Shown piece after piece: positions 28,837-36,429 of a stretch of 64,000 nt of DNA. The translations under genes and the position numbers were made by a program. This DNA comes from Alphaproteobacteria bacterium. Lineage in GTDB: Bacteria; Pseudomonadota; Alphaproteobacteria; Elsterales; Elsteraceae. A model generated the notes under the pieces. The model made no database searches. It saw nothing but the letters and a program-made list of their open reading frames with translations, and was not told where the DNA came from. The stretch covers positions 62,001 through 126,000 of the forward strand of contig RDXE01000024.1 in assembly GCA_004292755.1 (NCBI GenBank). The letters run 5' to 3'. Numbering within the stretch: position 1 is the stretch's first letter; the number at the start of each line of letters is the position of its first letter.

Positions 28837-29673
28837 CTAGTCGCCGATGATCGCGTAGCTGATCCGTGGCTCGAACGGGAAGCGACGGATACGCAAGCCG
28901 TTGAGGGAGCCGAAGTGCTCCAGCGCCGCGATGGTCTCGCCGGGGAAGGCCTCTTCATTCAACTCATCAAAGGCGACGATGCCGCCCTTTGGCACGCGCG
29001 GCAGGAACAGCTCCAGCGCGCGCTTGGTTGGCGCATAAATGTCAAAGTCCAGATACAGCAGGCTGACCACCAAGTGGGGGTAGTCTTCCAAGAACTTCGG
29101 CGCGGTTTCCATAAAGTCCCCCTTCACAAGGTGGACTTTCGGGAAGTGATTGAGGAAGCGGCTGATATCAAACAAGCCGACGGCTTGTTGCAAATCCTCG
29201 TAGGCATCGCCCGCGTGGAAGCCACCCTCTTTCAAGTGCGCGGACTTACGCTCCGGTCGACCACGCAGGTCAGCCTCGTGGATCGACGGGAAGCCTTCGA
29301 AGCTGTCAAAGCCGATCACACGGCGCTGGAAGTTGTAGGGCTCCAAGATCGCGGAGATCTTGGCCCAACTCATCAGGCCGCCGCCAAACAGCACGCCGCA
29401 TTCCACAATCGAGCCCTGAATCTGCTCAACCATTTTGAACAATTCATAGCGGACCAGAAAGCGGGCAAGATTCTGACGCGGCACGTACTTGGCGAAGTTT
29501 TCCAACTTCTCCGTCGCCGAGCCTGGGCTGCGTTCAAAATACTCTTCCAGCGCAGTGCGACTGGCATAATCAAACCCGGCTTGAGTGCGCGGGTCGTGCA
29601 TGGTGGGGGAGATATCAGCCACGCCGGTGTCCGGCGTGGCTGCGGTGACCTCAGGTGCCTTGGGCTCAGGCAT
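28837..29673 (-). CDS. TylF/macrocin O-methyltransferase-family SAM-dependent methyltransferase
   Basis: A class I methyltransferase of about 278 residues resembling TylF/MycF sugar O-methyltransferases. Key segments are IQGSIVECGVLFGGGLMSWA (SAM-binding region), RRVIGFDSFEGFPSIHEAD (acidic residue at the end of strand 2), a VHLVKGDFMET segment, SLLYLDFDIYAPTKRALELF (metal-binding aspartates) and GGIVAFDELNEEAFPGET. The ATG at 29673 follows AAAGGAA with a seven-base spacer and overlaps the oxygenase gene by eight bases. It is the last gene of the flagellar transcript flgI...flgL. A target in flagellin, hook proteins or their glycans is an inference from position. Confidence 0.8.
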   Translation of the reverse strand: MPEPKAPEVTAATPDTGVADISPTMHDPRTQAGFDYASRTALEEYFERSPGSATEKLENFAKYVPRQNLARFLVRYELFKMVEQIQGSIVECGVLFGGGLMSWAKISAILEPYNFQRRVIGFDSFEGFPSIHEADLRGRPERKSAHLKEGGFHAGDAYEDLQQAVGLFDISRFLNHFPKVHLVKGDFMETAPKFLEDYPHLVVSLLYLDFDIYAPTKRALELFLPRVPKGGIVAFDELNEEAFPGETIAALEHFGSLNGLRIRRFPFEPRISYAIIGD

Positions 29674-30562
29674 CCACCAGTTCCTTTGTCGAAGTCGATG
29701 TGGCCACCACGCCATCCGGCAGGGGTGACAGATCCTTCATCGACAGGAAATCGCCCAAAGTGCTGCCAGTGGAGCGGCAATCCACATTTGGTGCACCGCT
29801 GCCATTGGTCAAATCAGCCAAGGAAACGGTGCGGAAGTCCATGCTGAACCGGGTCTTGCCGCTATCGTTCGGGCAAGTTGCATGCAGGTGAGCGGCTGAA
29901 AACATCAGCAGATCGCCCGAGGTTCCTGCGATGCGGAACTCGGATGCACCAGATGCCTCTTCCATCGGCACTGGATGCTTGCGCGTGTCAACTGTCGTCT
30001 GTTGCATGGCAGCTGTCCGCCCAAAGGCACACCACTCGCCATAATCAAACTCAGCGGAGTTGTTGAGAATTGGGCGATCCCAATACTCCCCAAGGAACGC
30101 CATGGCGCGCCGCGGCACCACATCCATCACCGGCATCCACCAGTTGATCTGGGCATGTGGTGACGAATACCAAGTGTCCCGATGCATCTTGTAGGCATAG
30201 GACACGCCCGCGGCCAGATAGCCGTCGGACGGCACAACGCGCAGACGCGGCACATCGAACCAAGTGTCGTCCGGATCGCAGCCGTATTCGGCCAACACCG
30301 CCCGCACCAAGTCTTTGGTGCGCTGACCGTTGGTGAATTCCTTCTTCAGCGGCCCGACGATTTCGATGAACCGCGGCACCTCCAGGTGGTACTGCGCGGT
30401 TTCCGGATCCAGCGGGTGGAAGGCCGCGCGCACCATGTCGGCTGCGTGCTGAGCAAGCGCCTTGCTGGCGGGCGAGGCCCCGTAAACCAGCAGTTCGCCC
30501 GAGAAGAGCTGTGTCCGGCGCTGCGCATCGCTGAGCGCGTGGTTCATGTAGATGCCGACCAT
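29666..30562 (-). CDS. Phytanoyl-CoA dioxygenase-like 2-oxoglutarate/Fe(II) oxygenase
   Basis: A 298-residue protein with the jelly-roll oxygenase signature: the iron-binding HxD in YKMHRDTWYSSPHAQINWWM, a distal histidine in MFSAAHLHATCPND, and the arginine of KTRFSMDFRTVS that would hold 2-oxoglutarate. It most resembles the PhyH family, whose members hydroxylate small molecules, lipids or glycan-linked groups. It starts 31 bases after the end of flgL on the same strand and overlaps the methyltransferase gene. The gene pair looks like a tailoring unit added to the late flagellar operon. Substrate unknown. Confidence 0.72.
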   Translation of the reverse strand: MVGIYMNHALSDAQRRTQLFSGELLVYGASPASKALAQHAADMVRAAFHPLDPETAQYHLEVPRFIEIVGPLKKEFTNGQRTKDLVRAVLAEYGCDPDDTWFDVPRLRVVPSDGYLAAGVSYAYKMHRDTWYSSPHAQINWWMPVMDVVPRRAMAFLGEYWDRPILNNSAEFDYGEWCAFGRTAAMQQTTVDTRKHPVPMEEASGASEFRIAGTSGDLLMFSAAHLHATCPNDSGKTRFSMDFRTVSLADLTNGSGAPNVDCRSTGSTLGDFLSMKDLSPLPDGVVATSTSTKELVDA

Positions 30563-30593: not shown

Positions 30594-33500
30594 CTAAAGA
30601 TAGTTCACCAAGCTGAGATTGCGTATCTGCGAAATCGCCGCGTAAGAGGCTTCAATGGTGGTCTGCAAGGATTGCAGCTTGGCCACCGTCTCAGCAGGAT
30701 CAGCCGTGAGAATCTGATCCTCAGTGTTCTTCGCCAGCGAGATGGTTGTTTGGTGGAACTTGCGCGCGTCTTTCAACTGAAGCTGGTCGAAGGCGACGTT
30801 GGAGCGCAGCGTGTCCAAACCAGTGATTGACTGGTCGATCAACGTGAGTGCCGCGCTAAGGTCTGCGGTTGACAAGGGAACGCCCTGATCGCGGGCGTAT
30901 CGCAGGACGCGGACCAACTGCTCAAATGCTGGTTCGTCGGCACGCACGCCAATCGCCACCAACTGGTCATCGGCCACTCGGACGGCAATATCGGTCGCGC
31001 GCTTGTCATCCTGATTAGTGCCAGCCAAGTAATAGGTCGGGTCGGTCAGGGTTTGGGCCAGGGTTGGAACTGTCGGTGGGTTGCCAGCGCCCAGAGTACC
31101 AAACGGCTGGTCGCCCGATGCCACCAGCGAGGTAGAGGACGCACTCACGCTGAAACTGTTCTGCGTGAATTCCAACTGCGGGTTCAGAGTTGCGCCTGTA
31201 ATCGCAATGCCGCCAACGGGAGGACGCAGCACAATCGGGCGCCCAGCCGTGCCTTGAGCGTCGGCTGGATTGATGATGCCATTGGCATAGGTGATGCCGC
31301 CTGCAGTGGTAGTGCCGCCAGTGCGAGTGCCCAGTTGCTGCGGTGCCGCCAGCAATTCGGTGCCACTTGCATCCTTGGCCGAGACTAGGTAGGCGCGCCA
31401 TCCGAGTGTCGGCGGGGCACCGCTATTCTCATACTGAACCCGGATCAACGCGTTGAGGCGCCGCCCTGTCGAGTCGGTGATGGCATTCTGGCCAGTCAGG
31501 CTGATGTCATACCGATTGTTTTGCGGCGGCAGTGGCAATTGAATGGTCGGTGGTACGGCCTCAGCACCCACACCAGTGACCGCAGTCGGAGCGTTGTTGA
31601 AGTTGCCCGCCAACCGCACGGTCTGCGCCGTGCTGGCAAGCGTGTTTGCGGGCATCGTGGTGTTCTCTGCCCGCATCGCCGTGTTGGCTGTAATGTTGGC
31701 GTTTGCGAGCGCACCAGCTGGCACCTGAAGAGAGGTGCTGATGGTGTTGGCGTTGCGCAGGGTTGGCGCGAACGGCCCAATCGACGTCGCAGTGGTTGGA
31801 TCGAACAACCCGCCAATCGCCACGGGCGACGCTGCTGAAATCGCCGGTGTCGTAGACGCCTCTCCGTTCGACTGCTGGGTCATGGAGATGGCGTAGGCGC
31901 GCCATGTGGCGCCTGCACCTGCCTGCTCCTTCACGAACCGGATGGTGAGGTTGTGCCCCTTCAACCCAGAGTCCAGCAGGGCTTCCGATCCAGAGTAGGT
32001 AATGTCGACAAAGCTACCCGGAGTAGGGGCAGAGACCGACGTGTTGACCGGCGCGGCGGGGTCAAACCGTCCGCCCAGACGGATCGACTGGGTCCCCAAC
32101 GTCGCGGGGGGCACGGTGACCGACGTGAACTGCTGCGGGCTGGTTGCACTGCCAGTTGGCGAACCCACCTGCATGCCGAAGGCACCGGTCGGAATTGTGA
32201 ACGAGCCGGCGACCACGGCACCCGTAGCGCCCGTGCCATCGATGCCGGCGCCTGTGGTGTTCACGGTGATCGCGCCAGCAACGTTGGCGCCGCCCGCAGT
32301 GCCGTAAACCGTCGCCACTGGGATCGGCAACGGCGTGGTCGCAGCATTGGCTCCCGTGGCAGCGTTCGTCACGCTCACAATTTCGGAGCGCCACACATCG
32401 AACGGAATGTTGGCAGTGCCAGCCGGATAGGTTGCGTCAACCGCTGCTTGATTAACCTCAAGACCGGTGAAAAACGGGTCGGCCCACGCAAGTGATGCGT
32501 CCAGCGCACTCGGCGGCGAGATGTTGCCGTCGATCATCCGATTGCGGATCACGCCCAACGCATTGGTCACCAAGGAGCGAGCCTGCTCGCCTGGGTTCCC
32601 AGCCGTCAGTTCCTTGGTGAACCGCACCTGGAGCTGGAGACGACGGCCTTGGTCGTCATAGACATCGTTGACGGTTTGAGTGATCTGCGTGCCGACACCG
32701 GCCAGGGTGTCCAGGGCGCCGGTCATGGTGATCCGCGATGTTGCGGTCACGGCGGTTTGCGTCTGGATCAAGTTCGTGCCAGTGGCGGAACTGATCGCCG
32801 CACCGCCCGGCCCCTGGCCCTGAATGTTCAGGACCAGATTGCCAGCAGACGGGAGGGTAACGCCCGCCGCGTTCAAGTCCAGCCCTGTCGCCAAGTTGCC
32901 GGCGGCTGGGTTGGAAGCGTTGAACAGCGCCGGTGTCGCCAAGATTGGATTGTCGGCACTGATCGTGCCGTTGGCATTGGTGGCTTTCGAGCCGTCGGAC
33001 GCGCGCGTCACATCGGTGATGTACAGCCGCCAATCATTGGTGCCCGTATTCGCCTCACGCACATACCGCACGGAGACGTTGTAGGCCGTCCCGGTGCTGT
33101 CGAACACCGTGTTGACCTGGGCGTCAAGAAAGCTCCCCGGCGTCGGCGAGCCCGCCCGCTGCGTGTTCGCTGTCGCACCGGTCAGGTTGGCCGTCAGACC
33201 AAGGGATGTGGTGGGCAGCCGTGGCACGGTGGTCGCTTGCTGAATCGGCTGGTCATAATAGCGCGATCCGGACAGCACATAGCGACCACTACCGTCCTTG
33301 GTATTCATCAAGGATTCCAGCGCGGCCAGATAGCCATTCGCCTGCCCGGCAAAATTCGGCACACCGCCGTTACTGCCTTGCTGCACCAGCGTCTTGCGCA
33401 CGTCCTGCGCCAGATTGCGCGCACTGGATAGCACCGTGTCGGTCAAGGTGAGGCGGGTGGTCGCATCATCAATCGTGCTGGTGTATCCTTCCGCATTGCT

Positions 33501-33671
33501 GCGCAAAGCATTGACGTTCAGCAGACTTTGCGTGCCAGTGGCAATGGTATCAAAGGTCGGCCCTTTGGTCTTGGTGCTAAGCTGGTATTGGAGATCAGCC
33601 AGCGACACATTGTTGTTCCGGATTTGGAACAGCGTCCGCTGCTGGTTCGTGAAATCGGAGATGCGCGACAT
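30594..33671 (-). CDS. flgL: Flagellar hook-filament junction protein FlgL, giant form with FlgE-D2-like repeats
   Basis: The ends are ordinary FlgL/flagellin-like helices: 1-150 begins MSRISDFTNQQRTLFQIRNN and includes SGSRYYDQPIQQ, and 880-1025 contains LIDQSITGLDTLRSNVAFDQ and ends ISQIRNLSLVNYL. Between them sits a Thr/Ala/Gly/Pro-rich insert of more than 700 residues, giving 1025 residues against roughly 300 to 400 usually. The insert repeats a hook-protein D2-like module: a TVRLAGNF-type strand, then D-S-x-G, a strand such as LNALIRVQYE and a W-R-A-Y strand. Copies are near 183-222, 330-365, 525-600 and 678-772. It is downstream of flgK by 25 bases. A surface-exposed enlarged junction protein is the likely outcome. 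Confidence 0.88.
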   Translation of the reverse strand: MSRISDFTNQQRTLFQIRNNNVSLADLQYQLSTKTKGPTFDTIATGTQSLLNVNALRSNAEGYTSTIDDATTRLTLTDTVLSSARNLAQDVRKTLVQQGSNGGVPNFAGQANGYLAALESLMNTKDGSGRYVLSGSRYYDQPIQQATTVPRLPTTSLGLTANLTGATANTQRAGSPTPGSFLDAQVNTVFDSTGTAYNVSVRYVREANTGTNDWRLYITDVTRASDGSKATNANGTISADNPILATPALFNASNPAAGNLATGLDLNAAGVTLPSAGNLVLNIQGQGPGGAAISSATGTNLIQTQTAVTATSRITMTGALDTLAGVGTQITQTVNDVYDDQGRRLQLQVRFTKELTAGNPGEQARSLVTNALGVIRNRMIDGNISPPSALDASLAWADPFFTGLEVNQAAVDATYPAGTANIPFDVWRSEIVSVTNAATGANAATTPLPIPVATVYGTAGGANVAGAITVNTTGAGIDGTGATGAVVAGSFTIPTGAFGMQVGSPTGSATSPQQFTSVTVPPATLGTQSIRLGGRFDPAAPVNTSVSAPTPGSFVDITYSGSEALLDSGLKGHNLTIRFVKEQAGAGATWRAYAISMTQQSNGEASTTPAISAASPVAIGGLFDPTTATSIGPFAPTLRNANTISTSLQVPAGALANANITANTAMRAENTTMPANTLASTAQTVRLAGNFNNAPTAVTGVGAEAVPPTIQLPLPPQNNRYDISLTGQNAITDSTGRRLNALIRVQYENSGAPPTLGWRAYLVSAKDASGTELLAAPQQLGTRTGGTTTAGGITYANGIINPADAQGTAGRPIVLRPPVGGIAITGATLNPQLEFTQNSFSVSASSTSLVASGDQPFGTLGAGNPPTVPTLAQTLTDPTYYLAGTNQDDKRATDIAVRVADDQLVAIGVRADEPAFEQLVRVLRYARDQGVPLSTADLSAALTLIDQSITGLDTLRSNVAFDQLQLKDARKFHQTTISLAKNTEDQILTADPAETVAKLQSLQTTIEASYAAISQIRNLSLVNYL

Positions 33672-33695: not shown

Positions 33696-35639
33696 TCAGC
33701 GGGCAACGTTCAGCAAGGCGTCGAACATGGTCGATGTGGTTTCCAGCACCTTCGCCGAAGCGATATAGGCCTTCTGAAACGTTACCATGTTCGACAGTTC
33801 TTCATCGACGCTGACACCATCAATGGCGGCAGCCTTGCGATTGAGCTCGGCCACGTATTGTTCCTGGTAGCCCGCCGCCGATTTGGCCTGCGCCGCATTG
33901 TTGGCAGCGCTGGACATCATCGCTGAGGCGTAGGATTGCAGGGAATAGCGGCCACTCGACAGAGTGGCGCCAAAGCTGCTGTATGGTGCGGAGGCCGTGT
34001 CGATCTGCGTGCCTGGATTGAACGCGTCCGCAAGCCGCTGCGCCACCGACGGTACCCGATCCCCATCGATCCTGAGACGCCCGGCGCTGCCGCCGCGGTT
34101 CGGATCAAAGAATTGATTGACCGAGATGGAGCGACTGAAATCCACCGTCGTGTCATAGGGGTTGGCGGTGCCGTCGAACTGGAACAAGCGATAGGTGCGG
34201 CTGTCCATCCACGCTGAGGAGGCGCGGGTCGCACCCGAAATCTCCGTCAGCAAGCGGGTTTCCGGCTGCTGGAAGGCCAGGGTGGTCGGCGGGGAGGAGC
34301 CGTGCTGCAAGATCATAGCACCGATTGCCGGTGGCGAGGCGCCTCCGACCGTGATGGTGCCCAAATTGATTGGGTTGGCAGGCGTGATGGTTCCCGTCGC
34401 CGCTGGGGTACCAGCGCCGTTGGGGTTGACCGTCGCAGCCGAGCCATCGCTGGCGCGCACCAAGCTGGTCAAAGTTGCTGCCACGGTTGGCGGGGAAACA
34501 CCGGCCGCACTGGTTTTGGTGAAGGTCAGCTGCGCCCGGTAGGCAACGCCTTCGCTGTCATACAGGACGTAGTTGTTGTCCAGCAGATTGCCCGTCAAAT
34601 TGCCGAGGTTATAGGTGGTGCCGACGGCATCATCCCGGTTGATCTGCCCGGCAAAGGCCAGCCGCATGGTCGGTGGCGCGGCGCCAGTGCCCTCAGCGAC
34701 TGAAGTCGCCACTGCGGGAGGTGCCCAGGCCAAGTCATAGAGCGCGCGGCTCATCGTGTTGAGTTGACGTGTCACATCCGCCAACTCGCGATCACGCAGA
34801 TCGCGCAAGCCCTGCAGTTTGCCGGTTGAGATTTCCTGCGTGATGTCCAAGCGCTCATTGCCCAGCAAGATCGGCTGGAATGTGGTCTCGCCCGCAACGG
34901 TCCCAGCAGGGCGGTAGGACAAGAACTGAGCGACACCATCCACCAGCACGCGACCGCGCTGGCTGTAGACCACCATTTCGCCACTGTCGCGCACAAAGGT
35001 CTGAATGCCCATCTGCTCCGACAATTGGGAGACCGCAAGGTCACGCTGGTCCGCCAGTTCGGCCGTGGACTGGCCCAAGGCAAAGGCACGGGTGATCTGG
35101 CGGTTCAGGCTTTCGATTTTGCGCAGCGCGTCATTGGCCAGATCGACCGATTGCTTGATGTCTTGATCCACGTTGGTGCGCAATTGCTGCACACCCGTGG
35201 ACAGACGGCGAATGTTGGTCGCCAGCGTCTGCGCAGCATTCACCGCATTGCCCTGCGTTCCCGACTGTTCGGGGTTGCTGGCCAGCGCGTTCAAAGCCTT
35301 CGACAAATCATTCACAGCAGTGTTCAGGAAGCCGCCAGTCGACGGCGACCCCAACAAATCCTGCAAGCGCTGCTGGTAGTTAGAGCGGATGTCGGTAGAG
35401 CCCTGGGTTGAGCCTTCGCGCCGAATGTCCCGGCGCAAGAACTCATCAACCTTACGCACCACGACTTCGGTTTGCACACCGCTGCCAACCGCGTTGTACA
35501 CCCGATTGGACAGCGGTGTGGTCTTGCGGGTGTAGCCGACAGTCTGCGCGTTGGTGACGTTGTTGGAGATTGTCGCCAGCGTTGATTCCGCGGCGCGCAA
35601 CCCCGACAGCGCATTGTTCAAGGACAACGTCAGAGTCAT
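33696..35639 (-). CDS. flgK: Flagellar hook-associated protein 1, FlgK
   Basis: First hook-filament junction protein, 647 residues. The N-terminal rod/hook signature SLNNALSGLRAAESTLATIS-NNVTNAQTVGYTRK and the C-terminal helix ELSNMVTFQKAYIASAKVLE-TTSTMFDALL are canonical. In the middle, residues about 323-400 contain TMRLAFAGQI, VLYDSEGVAYRAQLTFTKT and TLTSLVRASDGSAATVNPN. This is the same FlgE-D2-like module repeated in the neighbouring FlgL, where ITDVTRASDGSKATNANG is nearly identical. The ribosome site AGGAG lies nine bases before the ATG, and two strong hairpins precede it. Confidence 0.94.
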   Translation of the reverse strand: MTLTLSLNNALSGLRAAESTLATISNNVTNAQTVGYTRKTTPLSNRVYNAVGSGVQTEVVVRKVDEFLRRDIRREGSTQGSTDIRSNYQQRLQDLLGSPSTGGFLNTAVNDLSKALNALASNPEQSGTQGNAVNAAQTLATNIRRLSTGVQQLRTNVDQDIKQSVDLANDALRKIESLNRQITRAFALGQSTAELADQRDLAVSQLSEQMGIQTFVRDSGEMVVYSQRGRVLVDGVAQFLSYRPAGTVAGETTFQPILLGNERLDITQEISTGKLQGLRDLRDRELADVTRQLNTMSRALYDLAWAPPAVATSVAEGTGAAPPTMRLAFAGQINRDDAVGTTYNLGNLTGNLLDNNYVLYDSEGVAYRAQLTFTKTSAAGVSPPTVAATLTSLVRASDGSAATVNPNGAGTPAATGTITPANPINLGTITVGGASPPAIGAMILQHGSSPPTTLAFQQPETRLLTEISGATRASSAWMDSRTYRLFQFDGTANPYDTTVDFSRSISVNQFFDPNRGGSAGRLRIDGDRVPSVAQRLADAFNPGTQIDTASAPYSSFGATLSSGRYSLQSYASAMMSSAANNAAQAKSAAGYQEQYVAELNRKAAAIDGVSVDEELSNMVTFQKAYIASAKVLETTSTMFDALLNVAR

Positions 35640-35715: not shown

Positions 35716-36429
35716 CTACAGCACATCATTGACCTTCTGTGCGCCCGACCCCGTCTGCTTCGGCTGGGTGGTCACACCGAAGGCGGAATAGCGCGCCTCA
35801 GGCTCCGCACGGGTGTCAGAGACCGCGCGCACCACGGCCCGGATCAACCGGTCGGTGGAGCGCAGGGCCGCGCGCAAGGCCTGCTCATTGGCAATTGCGG
35901 CATCATTCATCGCCGTCACCGCCGCCTTCAGATCTTCGAGATCCTCGGCTGCATACTCCGACCCATCATCCAGCACACGGGGATCATGAGCGATCAGCAT
36001 GGCGGTTTGGCGCACGGCGGCCGACAGCCGCTCCTTCTCTTCCTGCAGCCCGCCGATCCCTGCAACGTCCCCGGCATCAATCAAGTCGATCTCATCCCAC
36101 AACAGTGTGGTCAGCCGATCCACCAGCTGGATGTAGTCGGGCACATCAATCGGCTCAGGCGCAGGCGTCTGGGTCTCCACAACTGCTGGACCGCCATCGG
36201 CGTACCCCAGCGGTGCTGTGCCGTCGTCATACCCAGGGGTTGGAGCGGCAGCTGCAACCTCGGCGTACTCCGCCTCTTCGTAGCCAGCTTCGTCGTAGCC
36301 AGCTTCGTCCCACTCCTCTTCGCCCTCCCACGCCTCGGCTTCCTCGGCGTAGAGGGTCTCTTCATCATACACCTCGCCCTCGACAGTGGCGGGCAGGGTT
36401 TGTGGTGCGGGAACGGGCAGCCGACTCAT
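35716..36429 (-). CDS. FlgN-like flagellar export chaperone with acidic N-terminal extension
   Basis: A 237-residue protein directly upstream of flgK. Residues about 98-205 form the helical FlgN-like part, starting DYIQLVDRLTTLLWDEIDLI, with LQEEKERLSAAVRQTAMLI and IANEQALRAALRSTDRLIRA. FlgN proteins bind FlgK and FlgL before export, which fits the gene order. The first ~90 residues are unusual: strongly acidic and tyrosine-rich with a short repeat (YDEAGYDEAGYEEAEYAE), then Pro/Gly-rich sequence. Its ATG overlaps the flgJ-like stop (ATGA). The name rests on pattern and position, as FlgN diverges widely. Confidence 0.62.
   Translation of the reverse strand: MSRLPVPAPQTLPATVEGEVYDEETLYAEEAEAWEGEEEWDEAGYDEAGYEEAEYAEVAAAAPTPGYDDGTAPLGYADGGPAVVETQTPAPEPIDVPDYIQLVDRLTTLLWDEIDLIDAGDVAGIGGLQEEKERLSAAVRQTAMLIAHDPRVLDDGSEYAAEDLEDLKAAVTAMNDAAIANEQALRAALRSTDRLIRAVVRAVSDTRAEPEARYSAFGVTTQPKQTGSGAQKVNDVL

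Follow-up and report, generated by a model that had tools for sequence, protein, structure and literature searches.

Ordinary FlgL proteins, such as those of Salmonella (HAP3, 317 aa), Xanthomonas and Burkholderia, have helical D0/D1 ends and a single outer region, inserted between the halves of D1, with one D2 domain or none, and their genes lie directly behind flgK. The exposed D2 domains of FlgK and FlgL, the 11 copies in each ring and the stress-buffering role of the junction are described in PMC12221982. In some species, the D2 domains of FlgL and FlgK share a common fold and probably meet (PMC6155364), and in the hook, D2-D2 contacts organise the structure and hold it together (PMC5069557). 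Large FlgL proteins are already known: those of Campylobacter and its relatives reach 750-950 aa and carry a bulky D2 (PMC5691160, PMC12221982), which in C. jejuni affects the cap (PMC12221982).

The FlgL described here shares with the ordinary proteins the helical ends, the position behind flgK and the single outer region, but this region spans about 740 aa and consists of four modules of the FlgE D2 type. As in Campylobacter, large outer domains of the junction ring coincide with a changed FlgK; a FlgE D2 repeat is not reported for the Campylobacter proteins in the available portions of PMC5691160 and PMC12221982, and the two cases are set apart here by description. Giant flagellins similarly carry a duplicated outer domain inside an axial protein, but they are flagellins rather than junction proteins and the domain is of another type (PMC6248924). 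The modules resemble FlgE D2 (PF07559) in sequence and in strand order, with one of them exceeding the curated Pfam cut-off, but they reside in FlgL and FlgK, are arranged in tandem in FlgL and lack the D0/D1 parts of FlgE. In the open-licence literature searched, no description of FlgL or FlgK with D2 modules of the FlgE type turned up; hence, whereas large FlgL proteins are not new, the presence of such modules in both junction rings appears to be.

The flgL gene and its neighbourhood

In the window (the whole 64,000-nt stretch analysed), flgL occupies positions 30594-33671 of the minus strand (ATG at 33671, stop codon at 30594-30596) and encodes a protein of 1025 aa (105.6 kDa), about three times the usual size, found in one lineage of uncultured alphaproteobacteria. 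The source genome (4.2 Mb in 95 contigs) is 99.9% complete, and the nearest named record is the alphaproteobacterial MAG JAAFHH010000355.1. The assemblies are of the metagenome type, and the giant FlgL is known here from genes alone. flgL directly follows flgK (33696-35639, minus strand; 647 aa; TIGR02492, 290 bits, above cut-off), and flgN-like, rod-binding (flgJ-type) and flgI genes lie upstream. In the FlgN-like chaperone (35716-36429), residues about 19-75, close to the N-terminus, are strongly acidic and rich in E, Y and A (pI 4.05). Behind flgL, on the same strand, positions 28837-30562 encode a putative 2OG-Fe(II) oxygenase and a TylF-like methyltransferase, with the oxygenase found at the same place in the congener; a possible function is modification of flagellar or surface glycans.

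Both ends of the protein are flagellin-like and helical, corresponding to D0/D1. The N-terminal part (residues 1-147; 33231-33671, minus strand) matches TIGR02550 and Flagellin_N, the latter over residues 5-136 (E = 3.5e-4) with 21.1 bits in one Pfam search and 26.8 bits in a second, against a cut-off of 26.6; the C-terminal part (residues 890-1025; 30597-31004, minus strand) matches Flagellin_C above cut-off (residues 942-1025, E = 2e-8). T, A, G, S and N together make up as much as 53% of the insert between them. Pfam searches detected neither the Flg_bb_rod N-terminus nor the Flg_bbr_C C-terminus, the hallmarks of FlgE, and the source genome encodes two FlgE proteins separately.

The TIGR02550 score (80.7 bits versus an equivalog cut-off of 127.2) might suggest that the frame encodes a flagellin or a fusion artefact rather than a junction protein. 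However, this cut-off does not separate here, given that only 35 of the 387 genomes searched in the class exceed it, whereas 185 contain matches. The position of the gene directly behind flgK, the lack of any other FlgL in a genome which encodes separate clear flagellins of 405 and 415 aa, and the presence of the same gene in a congener from a different assembly make such an origin highly improbable. The identity and the 1025-residue length given by an earlier sequence-only reading, which did not name the strand, are thus borne out.

Four modules and their relationship to the hook protein D2 domain

Residues 152-870 were split, with approximate borders, into M1 (residues 152-308; 32748-33218), M2 (309-526; 32094-32747), M3 (527-681; 31629-32093) and M4 (682-870; 31062-31628), all on the minus strand. 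With the congener orthologue included in every module profile, hhalign linked M1 to M3 (5.9e-9), M3 to M4 (1e-6), M1 to M2 (7.7e-4) and M1 to M4 (1.1e-3), with weaker values for M2-M3 (0.029) and M2-M4 (0.073). Of 60 column shuffles, 7 reached the observed score of M2-M4, so that the similarity of this pair is not above chance, while for all other pairs no shuffle did. The internal similarity expected from the earlier proposal of at least four repeats is accordingly present in the profile alignments. The repeat motif is looser than had been proposed: the order of strand, turn, V-R-F-Y strand and W strand holds in M1-M4, but the T-x-R-L-x-G-x-F strand is found in M3 and M4 only (SIRLGGRF and TVRLAGNF), as is W-R-A-Y (WRLY in M1, WRSE in M2), and the D-S-x-G turn departs in M2 (DDQG) and M3 (DSGLKG). 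In M2, about 65 additional residues (about 358-424) precede the W strand and are helical in a low-confidence model.

Pfam FlgE_D2 (PF07559) matched residues 176-264, within M1 (2.7e-8, 34.9 bits, curated cut-off 22.7), while M2 (13.4 bits) and the FlgK module (13.5 bits) remained below the cut-off and M4 gave no match. The congener FlgL yielded two matches, corresponding to M1 and M3 (E = 0.0018 and 0.003, the latter 19.3 bits), both below the cut-off. Against an external D2 profile, derived from 29 FlgE proteins that do not belong to the family, hhalign gave 5.3e-6 for M1 and 6.8e-6 for M2, values that no shuffle reached, and 0.02 for M3 alone; M4 had no direct match (0.46). The FlgK encoded next door carries one module of the same type (residues 317-463; 34251-34691, minus strand), which matched the external profile at 2e-5 alone and 8.8e-6 with its orthologue, again with no shuffle reaching the score, and FlgL M1 at 9.1e-6. 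Judging by these E-values, M1, M2 and the FlgK module are linked to FlgE D2 directly, whereas M3 and M4 are linked mainly via M1 and M3, M4 through M3 only.

The strongest sequence-based test of homology is the reverse search with a profile (A2) built from M1, M3, M4 and the FlgK module, with no FlgE inside. Among 397 Pseudomonadota genomes, the foreign proteins that this profile retrieved at E <= 1e-3 number 11; every one of them is FlgE, and the matched positions that were checked fall in D2. Among 177,635 PDB sequences, its best match was FlgE residues 165-298 (E = 0.039) and the third best was also FlgE (E = 0.84). A module-profile match to a chemotaxis receptor (E = 0.015) was taken as chance, and for this reason the marginal matches in the same search (M2, 0.003; FlgE1, 0.015) carry little weight on their own. 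Collectively, the profile comparisons support homology of the modules to FlgE D2.

Structure prediction contributed less. An AlphaFold model of M3, for which the input was restricted to seven junction modules to keep FlgE from biasing the result, showed the expected three-strand meander (pTM 0.71, core pLDDT 80-90), but a Foldseek search of this model against the PDB returned 21 matches, all with E above 2 and none to FlgE. The full-length model, built from two sequences, has a pLDDT of 35 and is unusable for claims about the fold, which leaves the borders of the domains and the way they are arranged provisional. The proposed likeness to FlgE D2 therefore holds at the level of sequence profiles, directly for M1 and M2 but not for M4, while the M3 model neither bears it out nor refutes it.

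The missing fold match of M3 would be compatible with the insert being an expanded canonical D2 beta-sandwich of FlgL and FlgK, with a likeness to FlgE D2 that is convergent or very ancient. FlgL D2 of Xanthomonas indeed resembles FlgK D2 (PMC6155364), and D3 of Burkholderia FlgK resembles its own D2 (PMC5691160). Yet Pfam, the PDB sequences and all 11 foreign matches point to FlgE rather than to FlgL or FlgK, which renders an expanded canonical domain improbable.

Distribution, selection and origin of the modules

The giant FlgL was found in two genomes only. The congener (G001) encodes a colinear FlgL of 1018 aa (74% identical) and an 87% identical FlgK which shares the module. In the sister genus (G005 and G007), FlgL and FlgK have about 575 and 595 aa, respectively, and the G005 inserts show no match to the modules or to FlgE D2 beyond shuffle level, except for a single 13-column alignment of the FlgL insert with FlgE D2 (E = 0.06, above its shuffles). 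Thus, the modules are present or absent in parallel in FlgK and FlgL. PF07559 was matched in 58 of 114 genomes of the class, and among the loci classified, every FlgE_D2 match was FlgE except for the FlgL described here. FlgE-type D2 in FlgL hence looks rare in this survey, which more divergent copies would escape. Several FlgL insertions in other families (e.g. L011 and L012) look different by eye. Very large FlgE-type proteins do occur in the class (L094, 1282 aa; L098, 1254 aa; L093, 1071 aa; L092, at least 957 aa); considered as candidate junction fusions, these frames of 957-1282 aa all proved to be FlgE.

Between the two congeners, identity is 80% in the N-terminal D0/D1 part, 71% in M3 and 82% in M4. 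The dN/dS estimates, for which dS is near saturation, are 0.22 (M1), 0.17 (M2), 0.07 (M3) and 0.10 (M4), compared to 0.09 in the C-terminal part of FlgL, which indicates that the modules are under purifying selection.

In the phylogenetic tree, the FlgL modules form one group (support 92/94) in which M3 and M4 are sisters (97/87), and orthologous module pairs join before different modules do, which places the duplications before the divergence of the two species. The modules of FlgL and FlgK, together with a D2-like domain from a DUF1217 protein, lie on the same side of the tree as the second FlgE paralogue of the family (87/89). This placement weakly points to a relationship with that paralogue; its role as donor is only a suggestion, given that the domain is short and the bootstrap unsettled. 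The idea that FlgE outer domains were duplicated into FlgL thus stands in so far as hhalign and the tree point to one family that duplicated within FlgL; a direct copy from FlgE is less well supported, considering that FlgK also carries a module and that the tree places the junction modules near the second FlgE paralogue only weakly.

Two different FlgE genes are arranged in tandem in G000 (contig 2, L036; 6906-8723 and 8832-10154), encoding proteins of 605 and 440 aa which both exceed the FlgE_D2 cut-off. Two FlgE genes are also present in G002, G003 and G005, which represent other genera of the family, and this suggests an old origin of the pair within the family. In the 16 kb region that contains the tandem pair, a candidate additional D2 copy in FlgE1 (residues 186-301, before D2) scored only marginally, at 0.008 against external D2 and at 0.0015 against the FlgK module, and was rejected. 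The DUF1217 protein is encoded in another genome of the same family (G003, L122, 5793-7160), beside a flgL fragment, and its D2-like domain, located before DUF1217, matches the external FlgE D2 profile at 5.2e-8 (hhalign), which adds one more protein of a flagellar cluster to those with this module. DUF1217 was not found in the source genome, in a search run without a positive control. Tentatively, FlgE-type D2 might be a transferable outer-domain cassette of the flagellar axis that, in this lineage, passed from the second FlgE paralogue to FlgK, FlgL and the DUF1217 protein, with the hook and both junction rings sharing a surface contact as a continuous outer sleeve; we regard this broader scenario as possible but doubtful.

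A possible collar at the hook-filament junction

We consider it likely, with a probability of roughly 0.7, that in the sole FlgL of this genome four beta modules in tandem, homologous to FlgE D2, have taken the place of the usual outer D2 region or overgrown it, that FlgK carries one more, and that the modules form a stiffening collar on the surface. The helical D0/D1 ends of FlgL would make up the second ring of the junction, flanked by FlgK and flagellin, with the FlgK ring and its single module beneath. The modules would be exposed on the flagellum surface, side by side with the D2-type domains of FlgE and FlgK, much as D2 domains are in the hook. Eleven copies of the insert, of about 75 kDa each, would then produce a collar wider than the ordinary filament, placed at the hook-filament boundary because of the position of FlgL in known flagella; both these hook-like side contacts and the collar itself are inferred. 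The likely role of such a structure would be to let mechanical properties change gradually between the flexible hook and the filament, and docking of the FliD cap might be affected as a side effect.

Alternatively, the modules could be adhesive or antigenic decorations, or armour against phages or predators, devoid of a mechanical role at the junction. The outer domains of axial proteins are highly variable, and the amino acid composition of the insert is like that of many surface domains. Nevertheless, conservation of M3 and M4 at levels comparable to D0/D1 is unlike that of a diversifying surface, and the parallel change in FlgK suggests a structural partnership, so that a purely decorative function seems unlikely, even if somewhat less so than an expanded canonical D2.

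A lineage with hook-type surface domains on both junction rings offers a natural experiment on how FlgK and FlgL reconcile a beta-type hook with a helical filament. The arrangement suggests that axial proteins can exchange their outer domains and that the surfaces of FlgE, FlgK and FlgL evolve together.
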